NCBI RefSeq assembly: GCF_000380165.1
Contig: NZ_KB904683.1
Coordinates: 1 to 44,320 of the forward strand
Source: Wenjunlia vitaminophila DSM 41686
GTDB lineage: Bacteria > Actinomycetota > Actinomycetes > Streptomycetales > Streptomycetaceae
Length of the DNA: 44,320 nucleotides
Direction: 5' to 3'
A program made the position numbers and the translations under genes. This document shows positions 415-7,265 of this stretch, piece by piece (position 1 is the stretch's first letter; each line of letters starts with the position of its first letter). Below the pieces are notes generated by a model. It searched no databases. It had not been told where the DNA came from and saw nothing but the letters and a program-made list of their open reading frames with translations.

Positions 415-3400
415 CTAACGCTCCTGGTGATTGGGACTGAAACCGCGGCCGTCGGTACCACCGGCCTGCCGGCCCTGCTGGATGCCGCGGCGGAGGTTCG
501 TCAGCCGACCGCGCACCTCGTCGGGCGCGCGGGAAACCTGGGGCCCGCTTGGCTGGGCCTGCTGCTCCTGCTGTGCCCTGCCCGGGACCAGGTTGGCCCG
601 GGGCACCCGGCGGGGCAGGCCCGAGGAGGTGACTCCGCCGGCCTGGGGCTCGCGGACCTGCTCGGCCCGACGCCACCGCTCGTCGTTGGCGGAGGGTCGC
701 CACTGCGCCGAAGCGGTGTCGGGGACCGCGGCCTGCGGCTGCGCCTGGGGTGCGCTGGACGGCTCCTGTTGGCTCCGGGGGGAACGGCTGGGCAGGGGCG
801 GACGTCCGGCGGCGGGCTGTGCGGCGGGTGCCTGCGCCCGCTGGGGGGCGGGTGCGGGCGGCGGCGGCGTGGGCCGTGCCGCGTCGGTGGTTCCCGGCAC
901 CTCGTGCGCGGCCTCGTGGCTCTGCGCCGCCGCCAGACGGTCGGCCCGACCGGTGCGGGAACGGAACCAGTTCGACTCCATGGTGTCGAAGATCGGGGTC
1001 CGCTCGTCGGCGTTGCTCGGCGCCGGAGGCAGCGCCATCGGCTCGGCGGCAGCGGGGAGCTGCGGATCCGGGCGGCGCTGCTCGAAGGGGTGCTGCTCCG
1101 GCTGGTGCTGCTCGGGCCGCAGCGGCTGGGGCAGCGGCGGTTCGGGCCGGTGTACCTCGGCCCGGTGCGGGGGTTGGCTGGGGAACGGCTGCGGCGTCGG
1201 CGGTTCCGGCCGCTGGGGCACGGGACGTTCCTCGTCGCCGCCGCGCACCGCCTCGAACTGCAGGGTGGACTCCACCCGGCCATGCCCGTCCTGGGCCCCC
1301 GCGGGCTCGGCCCAGCCCGGGTGCCCGGGAACGGGGGTGCCGTCCGGCGGGGTCGCGGTCCGCTCGGGCGCGTCCCGGAAGAGCCCGGCCCAGGGGGCCG
1401 CGTCAGCGGGCTGCTGACCGCGCGGGGAGTGCGCCTGCGGTGGGACCGGCGGGTCGGACGGGTCCTGCCGCGGGCGGCTCGGGGGCGCCTGCGGGGGTGC
1501 GACGTGGGCCGACTGCGGTGCCGGTTGGGGACGGGCCGGATGCGACCTGGTGGGCAGCGGGGGCGGAGGCAGGGTGCGGTTCGGCGGCTGGCTCCCGGAC
1601 TGGGGGTTCCCGTCGCGCTCGGAACGGTTGTCGTTGCGGTCCGCGGCGACCGGCGCCGGACCGGTCCTGACCGGTCCGGACTGGGCCCGGTTGTCGGCGT
1701 TCTGGCGCTGCGACGACTCGGGGCCGCGGCCGGCCGGACCCGCGCCGGCACCGGCCGGGAACGCCCCGGGCTGGCCCTGCTGGGGGCCGCCCGCGGCCGG
1801 GGCCTGCTGCCGGTTGCCGCCGGGCCGCGGGGCGCTGCCGCCCTGGGTGATGTCCACCGGCAGCATGACCAGCGCCGTCGTGCCGCCCGAGTCGCTGGGG
1901 CGGAGCTGGATGCGGATGCCGTGCCGCAGGGAGAGCCGACCGACCACGAACAGGCCCATGCGGCGGGAGACCGACACGTCCACGGTCGGCGGGTTCGCCA
2001 GCCGCTCGTTGATGTCGGCCAGGTCCTCGGGGGACAGGCCGATCCCGGTGTCGTGGATCTCGATGAGCACCCGCCCGTCGGGAAGGGCGTGACCGGTGAC
2101 CCGCACCCTGGTCTGGGGACTGGAGAACGAGGTCGCGTTCTCCAGCAGCTCGGCGAGCAGGTGCACCAGGTCGTTGACCACACGACCGGCCACCTCGGTC
2201 GAGGGCACCGCGGTCAGTTCGATCCGCTCGTACTGCTCCACCTCGGAGGCGGCGGCGCGCAGCACGTCCACCAGCGGGACCGGGCGGGTCCACCGGCGCC
2301 CCGGCTCCTCGCCCGCGAGGACCAGGAGGTTCTCGCCGTTGCGGCGCATGCGGGTGGCCAGGTGGTCCAGCTTGAACAGGCTGGAGAGCTGGTCCGGGTC
2401 GGCCTCGCGGCTCTCCAGCTCGGAGATGAGGCTGAGCTGACGCTGGATGAGGCCCTGGCTGCGCCGGGAGAGGTTGGTGAACATCGCGTTGACGTTTCCG
2501 CGGAGCAGCGCCTGCTCCGACGCCAACCGGACGGCCTCGCGGTGCACCTCGTCGAAGGCCTTGGCCACCCGCCCGATCTCGTCGCGGGAGTTCAGGCCGA
2601 TGGACTGCACACTGGTGTCGATCTCCTGTGGATCGGCCTCTGACAGGTGCTTGACCAGTTCCGGGAGCCGGTGCTGCGCGACCTCCTGGGCGGTGTCCTG
2701 GACCCGCCGCAGCGAGCGGATCATGGAGCGGGCCACCACGGCGGCGCCGACCACCGCCACCCCCAGGACGATCAGGATCATCGCCCCGTTGAGCAGTGCC
2801 TCCCGCTGCGCCTCGTCGCGGAGCTTCTTGGCCTGCTTGGCCATCTGGGAGAGCAGCTCGGTCTGGACCGCCTCCATCGCCTCCATCTTGGCGGAGGAGC
2901 GGTCGATCCAGTCCAGGTACGACATCTTCTCGGACTTGATGCCGTTCTCGTAGTTGACCGCGCGCTCGCGGAACTTGTCCGCGAGCTTGATGTCCACCAC
3001 GTCACCGTCGACGCCCTTGAGCAACTCGTCGGCGTCGTCACCGTAGATGGCCTCGAACCGGCTCCGGGCGCTGCGCTCGGTGGTGTAGGTGGTGCGGGCG
3101 AAGTACCGGTCGTTCTCGCTGAGCGCGGGGCCGTCGTCCCTGGCGAGGGCCGCGGCCAGGATGGCGCGCTGCACCGAGTACGCCTCCTTGGAGGAGGAGA
3201 AGGCGCTCAGCGCGCGGGTGCGCTGGATCATCTCGGGGCTGCCGGAGGCCTGGGCCATGTCCTGGGAGAGGGACAGGAGTCCCTCGACGAGCTGGCTGTA
3301 GCCCTCGGCGGTGGGGGACACGTAGCTCGGGTTGTCGTAGGCCCGGGCACGGATCCGGTTGAGTTCGTGGAGCTGGTTCTCGATCTGCACCAGCGTGTTG

Positions 3401-3930
3401 CGGACACCCGTCAGGTTGTCGTCGTCCTCCGGGACCGCCTCGCTGGCGTTGTGGAAGGACTCCGAGGCCTTGTCCGTCGCGTTCCGGCTGGCCTTGATCT
3501 GGTCGTCGCTCTTCCGACCGCGGATCAACGGCCCGGCCGTCATGTCCCGCTCTGCCTGGAGGGCGTCGGCGAGCTTGGTGGCCCGCTCGGTCAACGTGGT
3601 GAGCTGGTCCATGTGCTCGAGCTTGTCCACCTCCTCCAGCGAGCTCTGGATGCGCAGCGCGCCCAGGGAGGTGGCGGCGACCACGGGGAGGGTGAGCAGC
3701 GCCACCAGGCGCGTGCTGATCCGCCAGTTCCGCAGCCGTATTCGCGACACCGGCCGGTCCAGTGGGTCGATCGGTGCGGCACCGCCGTTCTCACCGTCCG
3801 AGCCCTTCGGCTTCGGCGTTGCCGCGGCATCGGCAGCCGGTGCGACCTGCGGCGCGGCGTCAGGGCCTGCCCCGCCGCGCTGCTCCGGGTCGCCCGCAGC
3901 GCCGCCATCCTTCTTGATACGTCCCTGCAC
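415..3930 (-). CDS. cvnA: Conservon sensor kinase-like protein CvnA (NIT sensor, HAMP, HATPase_c)
   Basis: This is a membrane protein of about 1171 residues. From the N-terminus: a cytoplasmic lead, a transmembrane helix (STRLVALLTLPVVAATSLG), an extracytoplasmic helical nitrate/nitrite-sensor-type (NIT) domain, a second membrane helix (GAMILIVLGVAVVGAAVVA), a HAMP linker, and an HATPase_c domain with an N-box (LLAELLENATSFSSP) and G1 box (IHDTGIGLS). The last 450 or so residues are a Pro/Gln/Arg-rich tail of low complexity. No clear phospho-acceptor H-box is seen before the ATPase domain, in line with CvnA proteins, which are kinase-like but whose phosphotransfer is unproven. I chose the GTG at 3930 because VQGRIKKDGG matches the start I remember for Streptomyces homologues and an AGAGG lies 11 bases upstream. 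ATGs at 4068 and 4164 are also in frame, but the latter overlaps a likely -10 element. Heads the conservon with cvnB. Confidence 0.85.
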   Translation of the reverse strand: MQGRIKKDGGAAGDPEQRGGAGPDAAPQVAPAADAAATPKPKGSDGENGGAAPIDPLDRPVSRIRLRNWRISTRLVALLTLPVVAATSLGALRIQSSLEEVDKLEHMDQLTTLTERATKLADALQAERDMTAGPLIRGRKSDDQIKASRNATDKASESFHNASEAVPEDDDNLTGVRNTLVQIENQLHELNRIRARAYDNPSYVSPTAEGYSQLVEGLLSLSQDMAQASGSPEMIQRTRALSAFSSSKEAYSVQRAILAAALARDDGPALSENDRYFARTTYTTERSARSRFEAIYGDDADELLKGVDGDVVDIKLADKFRERAVNYENGIKSEKMSYLDWIDRSSAKMEAMEAVQTELLSQMAKQAKKLRDEAQREALLNGAMILIVLGVAVVGAAVVARSMIRSLRRVQDTAQEVAQHRLPELVKHLSEADPQEIDTSVQSIGLNSRDEIGRVAKAFDEVHREAVRLASEQALLRGNVNAMFTNLSRRSQGLIQRQLSLISELESREADPDQLSSLFKLDHLATRMRRNGENLLVLAGEEPGRRWTRPVPLVDVLRAAASEVEQYERIELTAVPSTEVAGRVVNDLVHLLAELLENATSFSSPQTRVRVTGHALPDGRVLIEIHDTGIGLSPEDLADINERLANPPTVDVSVSRRMGLFVVGRLSLRHGIRIQLRPSDSGGTTALVMLPVDITQGGSAPRPGGNRQQAPAAGGPQQGQPGAFPAGAGAGPAGRGPESSQRQNADNRAQSGPVRTGPAPVAADRNDNRSERDGNPQSGSQPPNRTLPPPPLPTRSHPARPQPAPQSAHVAPPQAPPSRPRQDPSDPPVPPQAHSPRGQQPADAAPWAGLFRDAPERTATPPDGTPVPGHPGWAEPAGAQDGHGRVESTLQFEAVRGGDEERPVPQRPEPPTPQPFPSQPPHRAEVHRPEPPLPQPLRPEQHQPEQHPFEQRRPDPQLPAAAEPMALPPAPSNADERTPIFDTMESNWFRSRTGRADRLAAAQSHEAAHEVPGTTDAARPTPPPPAPAPQRAQAPAAQPAAGRPPLPSRSPRSQQEPSSAPQAQPQAAVPDTASAQWRPSANDERWRRAEQVREPQAGGVTSSGLPRRVPRANLVPGRAQQEQQAQPSGPQVSRAPDEVRGRLTNLRRGIQQGRQAGGTDGRGFSPNHQER

Positions 3931-4155
3931 TAGCGTCGCAACCTCTGGACCAGGCGTCCCCCGCGCGGGCGGCGGGACGGTGTCGAGTCTTGAGGGCTCG
4001 TGCCCATCCGTTGGCCGAGCGGCCGACACGTGCCCTGTTGGACCGCCTCCCGGGTCGTCGCGCTCCATATCGCGCGAGCGGGGTAGTGAGTCGGCGGTCC
4101 GTGGAATTCCAGCACAGGCCAGCAGCGCCAACAAGGGCGGAGGTAGAGCGAGCGG

Positions 4156-4186
4156 ATTATGCAACGTTCCGCACGTGAACTGTCAC
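4156..4186 (-). promoter_or_regulatory. Possible cvnA promoter
   Basis: On the minus strand a -35-like GTGACA (4181-4186) and a -10-like CATAAT (4156-4161) are separated by 19 bases, slightly longer than ideal. They sit just upstream of the kinase gene in unusually AT-rich DNA. Inferred from pattern only. Confidence 0.35.
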
Positions 4187-4562
4187 TGTTGGTGGAGGTC
4201 TCTCTGACAGATATTGTCACTTTGTGGACACTCCGGACTCGGCGAACTCCTGTCCCACAGCTCTTTTGGGAGCGTGGAAGGCGACGCTCGAGGGTAATGC
4301 CGGGATCATCCCCATGTCCGGTATGATGGGTTTCTTGGGTGTTTGCCGTTCCCTGGGTGAGCAAAATCACAGCGTCGCAGTGGCGAATGTCACGGTGCTG
4401 GGGTGTTACGCAGGTTTAGCGTGCTGGTTTACGTGAGGGCGGTTGCTGTCCACCGAAGCTGGCTCGTCGCCCGTTCCCGACGCGAGCCCCCTGCATGAAC
4501 CTGGTCCGGCACGACCGTTTCCCATGACCGTTCCCGACACGACACGAGGTTGACTCCGCGCG
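4187..4562. other. Intergenic regulatory stretch between cvnA and the 71-residue ORF
   Basis: This stretch of about 375 bases is clearly less GC-rich than its surroundings and I see no supported gene in it. It holds two small perfect dyads: TGACA-GATAT-TGTCA at 4205-4219 and GGGAT-C-ATCCC at 4302-4312. A TATGAT hexamer (4322-4327) could be a plus-strand -10, but no convincing -35 precedes it. A 15-base motif, ccgttcccgacRcga, occurs at 4471-4485 and again at 4528-4542, 57 bases apart, just upstream of the small ORF. The dyads could be binding sites for a regulator of the divergent transcripts; this is inference. Confidence 0.4.
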
Positions 4563-4778
4563 ATGAAGACCACGCTGAACTCCCGGTCCATAGCCAACCC
4601 CCGGCGCACCACCCTGGCGCACCTGGAGAAGGGCGCACTGGACAAGGTCAGCCTGTCAGGCGGTGTCACCCAGGACGGCGCGGACCCGGCGGTTGAGCAG
4701 GCTCCGCCGGCGGTGGAGACCCCGCTGACCACGGCCAACCCCAACCGCACCGTCGTGGTGGACGCCCCCGCGGCCTGA
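4563..4778 (+). CDS. Unrecognised 71-residue protein, no cysteines, acidic C-terminal half
   Basis: I do not recognise this gene. It starts at an ATG at 4563 (an in-frame stop lies 12 bases upstream, so this is the earliest start) with GAGG 13 bases before it, a long spacing. It is probably real: 65 of 71 codons end in G or C, as in neighbouring genes, which is unlikely for a random frame. The N-terminal third is basic (KTTLNSRSIANPRRTT); the rest is acidic and rich in Pro, Ala, Val and Thr (ADPAVEQAPPAVETPL), ending in PAA. There is no signal peptide, membrane helix or cysteine. It is followed by FAH after 116 bases and preceded by the divergent conservon. A leader-core arrangement as in peptide natural products is possible but no modification enzyme is seen nearby. 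Confidence 0.5.
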   Translation: MKTTLNSRSIANPRRTTLAHLEKGALDKVSLSGGVTQDGADPAVEQAPPAVETPLTTANPNRTVVVDAPAA

Positions 4779-4894
4779 ACCGCCGGCTCCGGCAGCGCCG
4801 CCCCGATCGTTAACCTAGGGCCGACAGGACACGGGTCCCGCATTCCGGGGGCCCGTGTCCCGGCGTCCATCGACCGAAGGGGCGGCAGCGAGCC

Positions 4895-5692
4895 GTGCGC
4901 ATTGCCAGGTTCTCCATCGACGGGACCGTCGGGTTCGGAGTGGTCGAGGGTGACCGCTCGGCGACGGCTCCCGCTGACGCGGACGATCTCGTCCTCGACA
5001 TCATCAAGGGGCATCCGTTCGGTGACTTCACCACCACCGGCCGGAAGGTCCCACTGGGCAAGGTCCGCCTGCTCCCCCCGGTGCTGCCGAGCAAGGTCGT
5101 CGCCATCGGGCGGAACTACGCCGAGCACGCCGCGGAGCTCGGCAACGAGGTTCCGGAACGCCCCATCGCCTTCTTCAAGCCGTCCACCTCGGTGATCGGC
5201 CCGGGCGACCCCATCACCTACCCCGCGTTCTCCACCGAGGTGCACCACGAGGCCGAGCTGGCCGTGGTCATCGGACGGATGTGCAGGGAGGTGCCGCCGG
5301 AGCGGGTTCCGGACGTGATCCTCGGCTACACCTGCGCCAACGACATCACCGCCCGCGACGTGCAGAAGGCGGAGAAGCAGTGGGCCCGGGCCAAGGGCTT
5401 CGACGGCTCCTGCCCGCTGGGGCCCTGGATCGAGACCGCGCTCGACCCCGCCGACCTCGCGATCACCTGCACGGTCAACGGCGAGCTGCGCCAGGCCGGC
5501 CGCACCGCGGAGATGATCCACTCGATCAGTGACCTGATCGTGCACATCACCGAGGCGATGACGCTGTTGCCCGGTGACGTCCTGCTCACCGGAACCCCCG
5601 CCGGTGTCGGCCCCGTCACCGCGGGTGACGAGGTCGCGGTCTCCATCGAGGGCATCGGCACGCTGACCAACCAGGTGGTCTCCCGCTCCTGA
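4895..5692 (+). CDS. Fumarylacetoacetate hydrolase (FAH) family protein
   Basis: A protein of 265 residues with a GTG start at 4895, preceded by GAAGGGG. It belongs to the large FAH superfamily of metal-dependent C-C hydrolases, isomerases and decarboxylases acting on 2-oxo acids. The N-terminal part is the short DUF2437-like cap; the catalytic fold carries the family metal ligands in HHEAELAVVIG (the E-x-E pair) and the aspartate of YTCANDITARD, plus KGFDGSCPLGPW and the C-terminal LLTGTPAGVG loop. These residues are intact, so the enzyme should be active. The true substrate cannot be read from sequence; homologues are often misnamed as 2-hydroxyhepta-2,4-diene-1,7-dioate isomerase. In Streptomyces a homologue lies directly upstream of gltX; here gltX does not follow and a terminator and tRNA promoter come next. 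Confidence 0.85.
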   Translation: MRIARFSIDGTVGFGVVEGDRSATAPADADDLVLDIIKGHPFGDFTTTGRKVPLGKVRLLPPVLPSKVVAIGRNYAEHAAELGNEVPERPIAFFKPSTSVIGPGDPITYPAFSTEVHHEAELAVVIGRMCREVPPERVPDVILGYTCANDITARDVQKAEKQWARAKGFDGSCPLGPWIETALDPADLAITCTVNGELRQAGRTAEMIHSISDLIVHITEAMTLLPGDVLLTGTPAGVGPVTAGDEVAVSIEGIGTLTNQVVSRS

Positions 5693-5722
5693 CCGCCGGC
5701 GGACCGGGCCGGATGCCGGCGG
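5693..5722 (+). terminator. Terminator of the FAH gene
   Basis: An 8-base perfect stem, CCGCCGGC (5693-5700) with GCCGGCGG (5715-5722), with a 14-base loop starts directly after the stop codon and is followed by GTTATT. Confidence 0.6.
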
Positions 5723-5733
5723 GTTATTCGATT

Positions 5734-5761
5734 TTGGAGCGCCCGCCGGATCGGGTAATGT
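5734..5761 (+). promoter_or_regulatory. Promoter of the tRNA-Gln gene
   Basis: TTGGAG (5734-5739) and TAATGT (5756-5761) with a 16-base spacer, about 95 bases before the tRNA. The block TTTTGGAG...GGGTAATGTTC resembles tRNA promoters I remember from streptomycetes. Confidence 0.5.
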
Positions 5762-5856
5762 TCTTCCTGCGCCACCGAGGCGGCCACCAGGTCGCAGCGG
5801 AGACGCAAGCCAAGCGACATCCCTCGGGGAGATTCAGTGTCCCGGGGATGGAGCAG

Positions 5857-5928
5857 TGGGGTATGGGGTAATTGGCAGCCCGACGGATTCTGGCTCCGTT
5901 AGTCTAGGTTCGAGTCCTGGTACCCCAG
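5857..5928 (+). tRNA. tRNA-Gln (anticodon CUG)
   Basis: The 7-base acceptor stem TGGGGTA (5857-5863) pairs perfectly with TACCCCA (5921-5927). The anticodon stem ACGGA/TCCGT encloses TTCTGGC, so the anticodon is CTG and it reads CAG. The T arm is CTAGG-TTCGAGT-CCTGG. CCA is not encoded. A strong hairpin, CCAGCGGGA/TCCCGCTGG (5925-5944), overlaps the 3' end and may direct processing of the trailer. Actinobacteria normally charge this tRNA with Glu through GluRS and then amidate it with GatCAB. Confidence 0.93.
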
Positions 5929-6038
5929 CGGGAGTTCCCGCTGGTCGCACCCTCTGTAGCTGTCGCTCTCGAGTCGCCTGTGCGCGATGGGAGTGGCAGA
6001 TGTGAAGGGGGTGGCCGAGTGTGAAGTTCCAAGGTAGG

Positions 6039-6111
6039 GCCCCCGTTGTGTAGCGGCCTAGCACGCTGCCCTCTCAAGGCAGTAGCGCCGGTTCGAATCC
6101 GGTCGGGGGTA
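6039..6111 (+). tRNA. tRNA-Glu (anticodon CUC), copy 1
   Basis: Acceptor GCCCCCG pairs with CGGGGGT; anticodon stem CTGCC/GGCAG encloses CTCTCAA, giving anticodon CTC; T arm CCGGT-TCGAATC-CGG type. The gene is 110 bases after tRNA-Gln with no clear terminator between them, so they may be co-transcribed. Confidence 0.93.
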
Positions 6112-6235
6112 CAGATCCTCTCCTTCTCCCAGGCGGGCCAAGGCCCGGGGGGAAGGTGCGCACCGTCACCATCCGGATGACAGTCCTGCCGCACGGCATC
6201 ACTTTCCCGGAGGCGATGAGCACAGGATCGCCAGG

Positions 6236-6308
6236 GCCCCCGTTGTGTAGCGGCCTAGCACGCTGCCCTCTCAAGGCAGTAGCGCCGGTTCGAATCCGGT
6301 CGGGGGTA
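6236..6308 (+). tRNA. tRNA-Glu (anticodon CUC), copy 2
   Basis: Identical over all 73 bases to the copy at 6039-6111, with unrelated flanks beyond a few bases on each side, 124 bases apart. A hairpin terminator follows. Confidence 0.93.
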
Positions 6309-6336
6309 CCACAGGAACGCGCACGACAGGCAACAG

Positions 6337-6523: not shown

Positions 6524-7237
6524 CTAGCCGCGGCGCAGCGACTCGGTGAGGCGGCCCGCCGCGTCCATCACGGCCTGGGCGTGCATCCGACCCGGGTGCC
6601 GGGTGAGCCGTTCGATGGGGCCCGACACGGAGACCGCGGCGACCACCCGGTTCGACGGGCCGCGCACCGGGGCGGAGACCGAGGCCACGCCCGGCTCGCG
6701 CTCACCGATGGACTGAGCCCAACCCCGGCGCCGCACCCCGGACAGCGCGGTGGCGGTGAACCGGGCGCCCTGGAGCCCGCGGTGCAGCCGCTCCGGCTCC
6801 TCCCAGGCCAACAGCACCTGGGCGGCGGACCCCGCCTTCATCGGCAGGGTGCTGCCCACCGGGACGGTGTCCCGGAGCCCGGAGAGCCGTTCCGCGGCGG
6901 CGACGCAGATCCGCATGTCGCCCTGGCGCCGGTAGAGCTGGGCGCTCTCACCCGTGACGTCCCTCAGGTGGGTCAGCACCGGGCCGGCCGCGGCGAGCAG
7001 CCGGTCCTCACCGGCGGCCGCGGCCAGCTCGCCGAGCCTCGGCCCCAGGATGAACCGGCCCTGCATGTCCCGTGCCACCAGTCGGTGGTGCTCGAGCGCG
7101 ACCGCGAGCCGGTGTGCCGTGGGACGGGCGAGACCCGTCGCGGCGACCAGTCCGGCGAGCGTGGCCGGACCGGATTCCAGCGCTGCCATCACCAGCGCAG
7201 CCTTGTCGAGAACTCCGACGCCGCTAGAGTTGTCCAT
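6524..7237 (-). CDS. ndgR: IclR-family regulator NdgR (leucine biosynthesis)
   Basis: A 237-residue IclR-type regulator. Residues 1-60 form the winged helix-turn-helix (PATLAGLVAATGLARPTAHRLAVALEHHR), followed by the GAF-like effector domain, with the family segment GSAAQVLLAWEEPERLHRGL near 140. I chose the ATG at 7237 because MDNSSGVGVLDKAAL is the start I know from NdgR; the frame also opens 7 codons earlier. NdgR of S. coelicolor and LtbR of Corynebacterium control leuCD and other amino-acid genes and affect nitrogen-dependent growth. Here it is divergent from leuCD with 188 bases between starts, which strongly supports that leuCD is its target. The recognition helix and wing look intact. 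Confidence 0.9.
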   Translation of the reverse strand: MDNSSGVGVLDKAALVMAALESGPATLAGLVAATGLARPTAHRLAVALEHHRLVARDMQGRFILGPRLGELAAAAGEDRLLAAAGPVLTHLRDVTGESAQLYRRQGDMRICVAAAERLSGLRDTVPVGSTLPMKAGSAAQVLLAWEEPERLHRGLQGARFTATALSGVRRRGWAQSIGEREPGVASVSAPVRGPSNRVVAAVSVSGPIERLTRHPGRMHAQAVMDAAGRLTESLRRG

Positions 7238-7254
7238 GAGCCGATACTGAGGTC

Positions 7255-7265
7255 TCACATCGTGA
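7255..7265. promoter_or_regulatory. Dyad in the ndgR-leuC divergent region, possible NdgR operator
   Basis: TCAC-ATC-GTGA (7255-7265) is followed at once by GAAACGCAAGTTC (7264-7276), a second dyad with GAA/TTC ends. The pair sits in the less GC-rich segment just upstream of ndgR, where an autoregulatory and leuCD operator would be expected. Binding is inferred from position and symmetry only. Confidence 0.35.

Follow-up and report, generated by a model that had tools for sequence, protein, structure and literature searches.

The window, the 44,320-nucleotide stretch of Wenjunlia vitaminophila DSM 41686 DNA (contig NZ_KB904683.1) analysed here, carries a small open reading frame that begins with ATG and ends with TGA. 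The proposal made from the letters alone, that this ORF lies between a conservon gene and an FAH gene, is borne out by Pfam, which finds NIT (E 3.6e-36), HAMP and HATPase_c domains in the kinase encoded on the minus strand and FAA_hydrolase in the product of the gene downstream (Table 1). The window contig ends before the remaining three conservon genes; at a related locus of S. violaceorubidus (L154) Pfam places Roadblock/LC7, DUF742 and ATP/GTP-binding genes after the same kinase gene, which makes up the full conservon set. Pfam also matches an IclR-type regulator and an aconitase-family (LeuC) gene among the neighbours, as well as a class I Glu/Gln tRNA synthetase. The labels cvn, ndgR, leuC, leuD and gltX are our own, leuD being assigned from sequence.

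Table 1. Coordinates of the features at the small-gene locus, numbered from the first letter of the window.
Feature	Position	Strand	Remarks
CvnA-type kinase, divergent neighbour	415..4164	-	Pfam NIT, HAMP, HATPase_c; start codon approximate
Palindrome GTGAGCAAAATCAC, candidate operator	4357..4370	.	GTGA-N6-TCAC
TTTAGCGTGCTGGTTTACG block, candidate -10 (TAGCGT 4417-4422)	4415..4433	+	TAGCCT in most relatives
GAGG, candidate ribosome-binding site	4546..4549	+	13 nt before ATG; from sequence
Small ORF, putative SCO5545 family	4563..4778	+	71 aa; [I/T]ANPRRTTL-linker-TANPRRTxL
First motif IANPRRTTL	4590..4616	+	residues 10-18
Rare codon ATA for Ile10	4590..4592	+	kept in most members
Second motif, degenerate in window: TANPNRTVV	4731..4757	+	residues 57-65; family form TANPRRTxL
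TAACCT, candidate separate -10 of FAH gene	4811..4816	+	
Inverted repeat between small gene and FAH, possible terminator	4819..4868	.	21-nt arms, 81% complementary
FAA_hydrolase / Rv2993c-like, downstream neighbour	4895..5692	+	Pfam

The ORF is a real gene. Its coding status is strongly supported because a search with the single sequence against 61 genomes, which preceded the use of a 15-row profile, recovered homologues from the same bacterial family that are full-length and have intact frames. Most counts given below refer to 81 members, that is, the window and the best 80 of at least 549 matching loci, a set that leans towards the window's sequence. The sequence-only reading had held that the gene would fall if close relatives had no intact homologue or if substitutions gave no sign of protein-level selection; the intact homologues were found, purifying selection is seen on both of the motifs described below, and the gene stands. 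Several other descriptions in that reading proved correct. In the ORF 65 of 71 codons end in G or C (0.915), much as in the real genes around it (0.906 in cvnA, 0.932 in FAH and 0.945 in leuC), and the protein has a basic N-terminal third (five Lys or Arg and one Asp or Glu in residues 1-24), an acidic remainder (two and six, respectively) and no cysteine, a residue absent from all of the 81 members. The statement that it resembles nothing known also holds, since neither NCBIfam, PADLOC, PHROGs nor the PDB, searched by sequence, returned anything meaningful and Pfam had no match in the window protein. With 29 members Pfam gave five matches, each to one member (best E 0.032) and none of them GAF or P450, and the NCBIfam matches were likewise weak and confined to single members (best E 0.043). 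Ahead of the start codon the 81 members have a peak of A and G at -16 to -13.

The protein family is built on two copies of one short motif. Its members are 56-84 residues long among the 81 and follow the layout MKTTmmfRnIANPRRTTLAHLkDA, linker, LPxqTANPRRTxLmdaP. The ANPRRTTL of the first motif is invariant in 81 of 81 members; in the second, TANPRRT is exact in 74 and TANP[RKN]RT is present in all 81, so that each member of this set (the window and the best 80 loci) has two NP[RKN][RK]T motifs. The two lie 33 or 34 residues apart in 55 of the 81, with a range of 32-47. In the window the second copy has decayed, with R61 and L65 lost, which hid the repeat from the sequence-only reading. Uncorrected pN/pS over all pairs was 0.24 for residues 2-21, 0.81 for the linker and 0.35 for residues 53-69, and the window against its best 80 relatives gave 0.42, 0.84 for the linker and 0.79 for the part with the second motif, values that are comparative only, as synonymous sites here are codon-biased and partly saturated. 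By these ratios both motifs are under purifying selection at the protein level and the linker hardly at all. The protein is probably intrinsically disordered, as judged from an AlphaFold2 model (29 rows) with a mean pLDDT of 60.5 and a pTM of 0.13, on which DSSP returned nothing.

The gene is single-copy, the profile finding only this locus in its own genome at E <= 10. A degenerate DNA pattern matched four places, two of them in this ORF, and one of the other two, L161, read by eye, has no family ORF; second profile matches in five genomes (E 0.002-0.007), which fall in other frames of 123-1231 aa, were taken as chance. Within the genomes sampled, the family is restricted to one bacterial family, Streptomycetaceae, to which Wenjunlia belongs. 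In a sample of the order the profile matched all 278 genomes of the same family, most of which belong to a single genus, and none of the 15 from other families. In a genus-diverse sample it matched 24 of 28 genomes; three of these matches were weak (E 7e-6 to 4e-5) but were confirmed by two TANPRRT motifs, and reading the FAH-upstream DNA of three genomes that the profile had missed (G002, G018 and G028) disclosed an ORF with two TANPRRT motifs in each, which brings the count to 27 of 28. The exception, G015, has no family ORF in its FAH-upstream DNA, though FAH, cvnA and the upstream palindrome are present. Of 396 genomes across the phylum, 20 gave a match at E <= 0.01, 12 of them strong and from the same family; the eight others were weak (E 4e-4 to 0.01) and were dropped. 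Seven of the eight were read, and the NEPRRGIG..TTLAHLE common to the long frames of L071-L073 was taken as a chance likeness. A strict two-motif DNA pattern, which finds 27 of 40 listed family members and thus misses about a third, occurs in 27 of 394 genomes of the class, all from one genus of Streptomycetaceae, and with that same sensitivity the motif pair was found in 0 of 354 class genomes outside Streptomycetaceae. There was no family match in the plasmids and phages searched, and in eight genomes of the order from outside the family both a cvnA match and the motif were absent from the 1.5 kb fetched at the FAH locus.

In all of the best 80 loci cvnA is the divergent neighbour (79 by a frame-based test and L139 by HSP), and FAH is present in 76 of the 80. 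Of the four exceptions L115 is uninformative, its sequence ending six bases after the last sense codon of the ORF. At the other three, L089 (Streptomyces albus), L105 and L109, the small gene and cvnA are together and FAH is not in the 8 kb fetched downstream, where the next match is a convergent gene for an acyl-CoA carboxylase epsilon subunit (Pfam ACC_epsilon for L105). The gene is therefore separable from FAH and not from cvnA in these loci; the loss on the FAH side may be a single rearrangement. FAH itself may be transcribed from a separate -10 element, as TA[GA][CG][CA]T occurs in 70 of 76 relatives' spacers between the ORF and FAH, mostly 48-58 nt before the FAH match. A terminator scan, which needs a T run, found none at the inverted repeat in the window's own spacer, and in L089, read by eye, a hairpin, TTTT and then the convergent gene lie 3′ of the small gene.

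A further observation concerns the FAH side. Between FAH and the genes for tRNA-Gln, tRNA-Glu and tRNA-Glu (5857-6311) the window has no gltX (5692-5857), a gene present in 75 of the best 80 relatives' loci; one GltX-like frame lies elsewhere in the genome (G000:C34:42237-43625), is 44% identical to that of W. tyrosinilytica and is perhaps a replacement.

The DNA between cvnA and the small gene is conserved in its own right, the 320 nt before the gene containing words strongly shared among relatives. A less GC-rich stretch had been noticed there, and the 100-base bins over 4150-4449 do have 53-58% G+C against 65-75% in most of the flanks. The 15-base repeat noticed with it is real as a sequence, with copies at 4471 and 4528, 57 bases apart and identical at 14 of 15 positions; it is not a conserved part of the region, because in a 32-row upstream alignment the other rows almost wholly lack the stretch with the first copy. 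What is conserved is the GTGA-N6-TCAC palindrome, found within 400 nt upstream in 104 of 105 rows (100 of 101 distinct ones, four genomes having been counted twice; L021 has none) and in 0 of 105 control windows taken 1-1.4 kb further up. From its start to a TAGCCT-type box downstream the distance is exactly 60 nt in 72 of the 81 members and 59 or 61 nt in five more. Allowing one mismatch, the site GTGAGCAAACTCACA was found in 25 of the 26 genomes from a single genus, 24 of which have one copy, compared with one match for a reversed control, and the genome without such a site is 79% complete. In the four comparable genomes G009, G061, G134 and G245 the palindrome begins 124-162 nt before the gene match.

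We read the palindrome as a DNA site rather than an RNA hairpin, because the would-be hairpin loses its fifth pair through changes such as ..AAAATCAC and because none of the six pairs in an RNA structure test of the upstream region was covarying. Rfam had nothing near gathering score over 3900-5000. As GTGAGCAAACTCAC, it fits the consensus GTG(N)8CAC of GlxR-type CRP sites (PMC10033298) and is a candidate site of that kind. The Crp consensus reported for S. coelicolor, GTG(N)6GNCAC, agrees with the palindrome, with both strands considered, in no more than 4 of 104 rows, and the BldD box TNAC-N5-GTNA differs in that the palindrome has TGAG..CTCA instead. The TTTAGCGTGCTGGTTTACG block is a candidate promoter from its sequence and position, at which a generic sigma-70 scan placed none, and the small gene probably has its own transcript. 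Since G015 keeps the palindrome (GTGACGAAAATCACA, before FAH at L228 1362-1375) without the ORF, it may serve cvnA as well or instead. Six further loci were checked for GTGA-N6-TCACA: L211 (g10) has it, and three g2 and two g5 loci do not, although the ORF is present in these five.

The small gene appears to be the counterpart of SCO5545 in S. coelicolor, which occupies the same place, divergent from cvnA1. This identity is supported, short of proof, because the intergenic region of L154 contains GGAATGATGGCTTCAGGCGTGTAA, three letters off the listed ScbR2 site GGAATGATGCCTTCAGGTGTGCAA. ScbR2 binds the sco5544-5545 region in EMSA, and Table 2 of the same paper gives fold changes of 1.024 for cvnA1 and 0.952 for sco5545, which amount to no effect of ScbR2 on expression, and describes sco5545 as a 'putative uncharacterized protein' (PMC4595836); in the parts of that source that concern the locus, SCO5545 is a label with no family, motif or function attached. 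A table row in PMC3224560 places SCO5546 in 42 of 44 actinomycetes, which fits FAH. The neighbouring gene, cvnA1, is a BldC and BldD target, WhiAB is said to bind its promoter, and mutation of cvn1 impairs aerial mycelium (PMC6428758); the cvnA1 promoter was enriched with WblC (PMC7157823), and CvnA1 is reported to act positively on antibiotics and aerial mycelium (PMC9739842). The small gene thus adjoins a promoter region that these sources list as a target of BldC, BldD, WhiAB, WblC and ScbR2. Searches of the literature for TANPRRT, ANPRRTTL and IANPRRT, and for SCO5545 as one word, returned nothing, and in the literature searched the family is described by that one table row; what is new here is a family with two motifs, a conserved palindrome, a rare ATA codon and low synonymous change at the tested codons 3-12.

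Our results lead us to a tentative interpretation, to which we would give somewhat less than an even chance, that the gene encodes a disordered two-motif adaptor or modulator belonging to the developmental regulon, with Cvn1 as its most likely target. The product would be an intrinsically disordered interaction protein whose two ANPRRTxL motifs, mostly 33-34 residues apart on a freely evolving linker, would allow one molecule to engage a symmetric, dimeric partner or a pair of partners simultaneously. Two-handed adaptors are usually built in this way, with two near-equal motifs carried on a free linker by a disordered chain. The earlier suggestion of a small signalling or interaction protein thus fits the architecture, while any partner is deduced from the neighbourhood. 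A protein pocket is favoured over charge contacts because Ala, Asn, Pro, Thr and Leu of the motif are as strict as Arg. Control would come from the conserved intergenic region common to cvnA, with the palindrome 60 nt before the -10-like box, and the most likely client would be the divergently encoded Cvn1 G-protein system, on which the protein would act during development. Cvn1 is the likeliest system because the gene and cvnA have that region in common and remain paired at the loci without FAH; that the neighbour is also the partner is our inference. If the protein does act on Cvn1, it would offer a small, easily mutated handle on how conservon G-protein systems work.

Accessory proteins of conservons have a precedent in CvnF, a GAF-domain protein, and CvnE, a P450, both tied to CvnA proteins without an extracellular sensory domain (PMC13343842). 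Like them, the small protein is an extra conservon-linked protein and a possible modulator of CvnA. It differs in having no domain match, in that the CvnA encoded here has a NIT domain, and in that its gene, although beside a cvn gene, is divergent rather than in an operon with it.

An alternate explanation, to which we would give the same chance, is that the disordered two-motif protein has a partner unrelated to Cvn1 and that the neighbourhood is inherited synteny. The adjacency to cvnA lies within a block whose FAH, ndgR-like and leuC/leuD genes are also syntenic in relatives, and conservon systems are reported from many actinobacterial orders while the motif pair was found in one family only, by the pattern whose sensitivity is given above. 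A comparison with the CvnA tail, described below, was not significant either. The three loci in which the gene and cvnA persist together without FAH, and the single conserved intergenic region that the two genes have in common, argue against it.

It is unlikely, in our estimation, that the protein is a nucleic-acid binder in which the paired NPRRT motifs make minor-groove or RNA contacts of the S/TPRR type, for example on the ribosome or the nucleoid. NPRRT can be likened to S/TPRR minor-groove and RNA contact motifs, and the two Arg pairs beside Pro would suit such a role. The family is, however, not strongly basic, with a median pI of 6.7 among the 81 members (window and best 80 loci) although the range is 4.9-11.3, and in the first motif Arg is no more invariant than Ala, Asn, Thr or Leu.

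The codon for Ile10 is unusual. Among the 78 of the 81 members with Ile at this position it is ATA in 60, whereas the FAH, ndgR, leuC and leuD genes of those loci use ATA at 10 of 3195 Ile positions. Nine of those ten fall among the 404 Ile codons of the homologues of the IclR-type regulator gene that we label ndgR (6527-7258 in the window), and the other three flanking genes have 1 ATA in 2791. On a tree of FAH from 76 loci, ATA and other Ile codons exchange in 6 changes, where shuffling gave a mean of 15.5 and a minimum of 12; ATA was therefore inherited and kept rather than gained often. GCC encodes the adjacent Ala11 in 79 of the 81 members but Ala58, in the second motif, in 58. On the same tree the tested codons 3, 4, 8, 10, 11 and 12 have 1-7 synonymous changes each, and later four-fold codons mostly 10-22, with lower values at Arg15 and Arg62 (6) and Ala28 (5); among two-fold codons His20 has 5 changes and Asp27 and Asn59 have 3. 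In S. griseus, ATA has been listed among the codons with relatively high ribosome pausing. The conserved ATA can be put to the test as well, as a possible rare-codon signal distinct from the known one of TTA and bldA.

One could imagine, though we think it quite improbable, that the small protein, soluble and with two motifs, competes with the CvnA1 C-terminal tail and titrates a Cvn1 component, its synthesis being tuned by the ATA codon. The CvnA C-terminal tail (415-645) has two strongly conserved Arg-pair motifs, GLPRRVPRANLV and VRGRLTNLRRGIQQGRQAG, and by our own count GLPRRVPRANLV stands about 38 residues before TNLRRG. In this competitor reading GLPRRVPRANLV and RLTNLRRGIQQG, about 38 residues apart in the CvnA1 tail, would be what the small protein mimics. 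The likeness between the two proteins amounts to a weak shared PRR pattern, which hhalign did not find significant (probability 0.3%, E 0.18), and we rejected it. Were the reading true, tuning by ATA would resemble that of bldA targets by the TTA codon, and the protein would be a new switch on an actinobacterial G-protein system.

We hold it to be very unlikely that the ORF is instead a cis-acting, leader-like element in which translation through the rare ATA matters and the product does not. The retention of ATA at codon 10 and the few synonymous changes at the tested codons 3-12 are what such a leader would produce; protein-level selection on motifs towards the C-terminal end, the -10-like box that FAH has for itself, the lack of covarying RNA structure, and the arrangement of L089, in which the hairpin, TTTT and convergent gene leave nothing downstream to attenuate, all speak against it.

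The sequence-only reading rightly rated a modified peptide precursor as less likely. That the ORF encodes a two-core precursor from which a modified or secreted peptide is made, as its small size and internal repeat might suggest, is hardly credible given the absence of Cys from all 81 members, the lack of a signal peptide evident by eye or of any recognised modification enzyme among neighbours up to about 9.5 kb of the window, the weak single-member Pfam and NCBIfam matches, and a layout with both ends conserved and a variable middle where a RiPP precursor has a conserved leader and a variable C-terminal core. In G006 (L222, about 4935) an extra TANPRRT is readable in frame 5′ of the start, and could be a third motif, part of a longer protein or chance.
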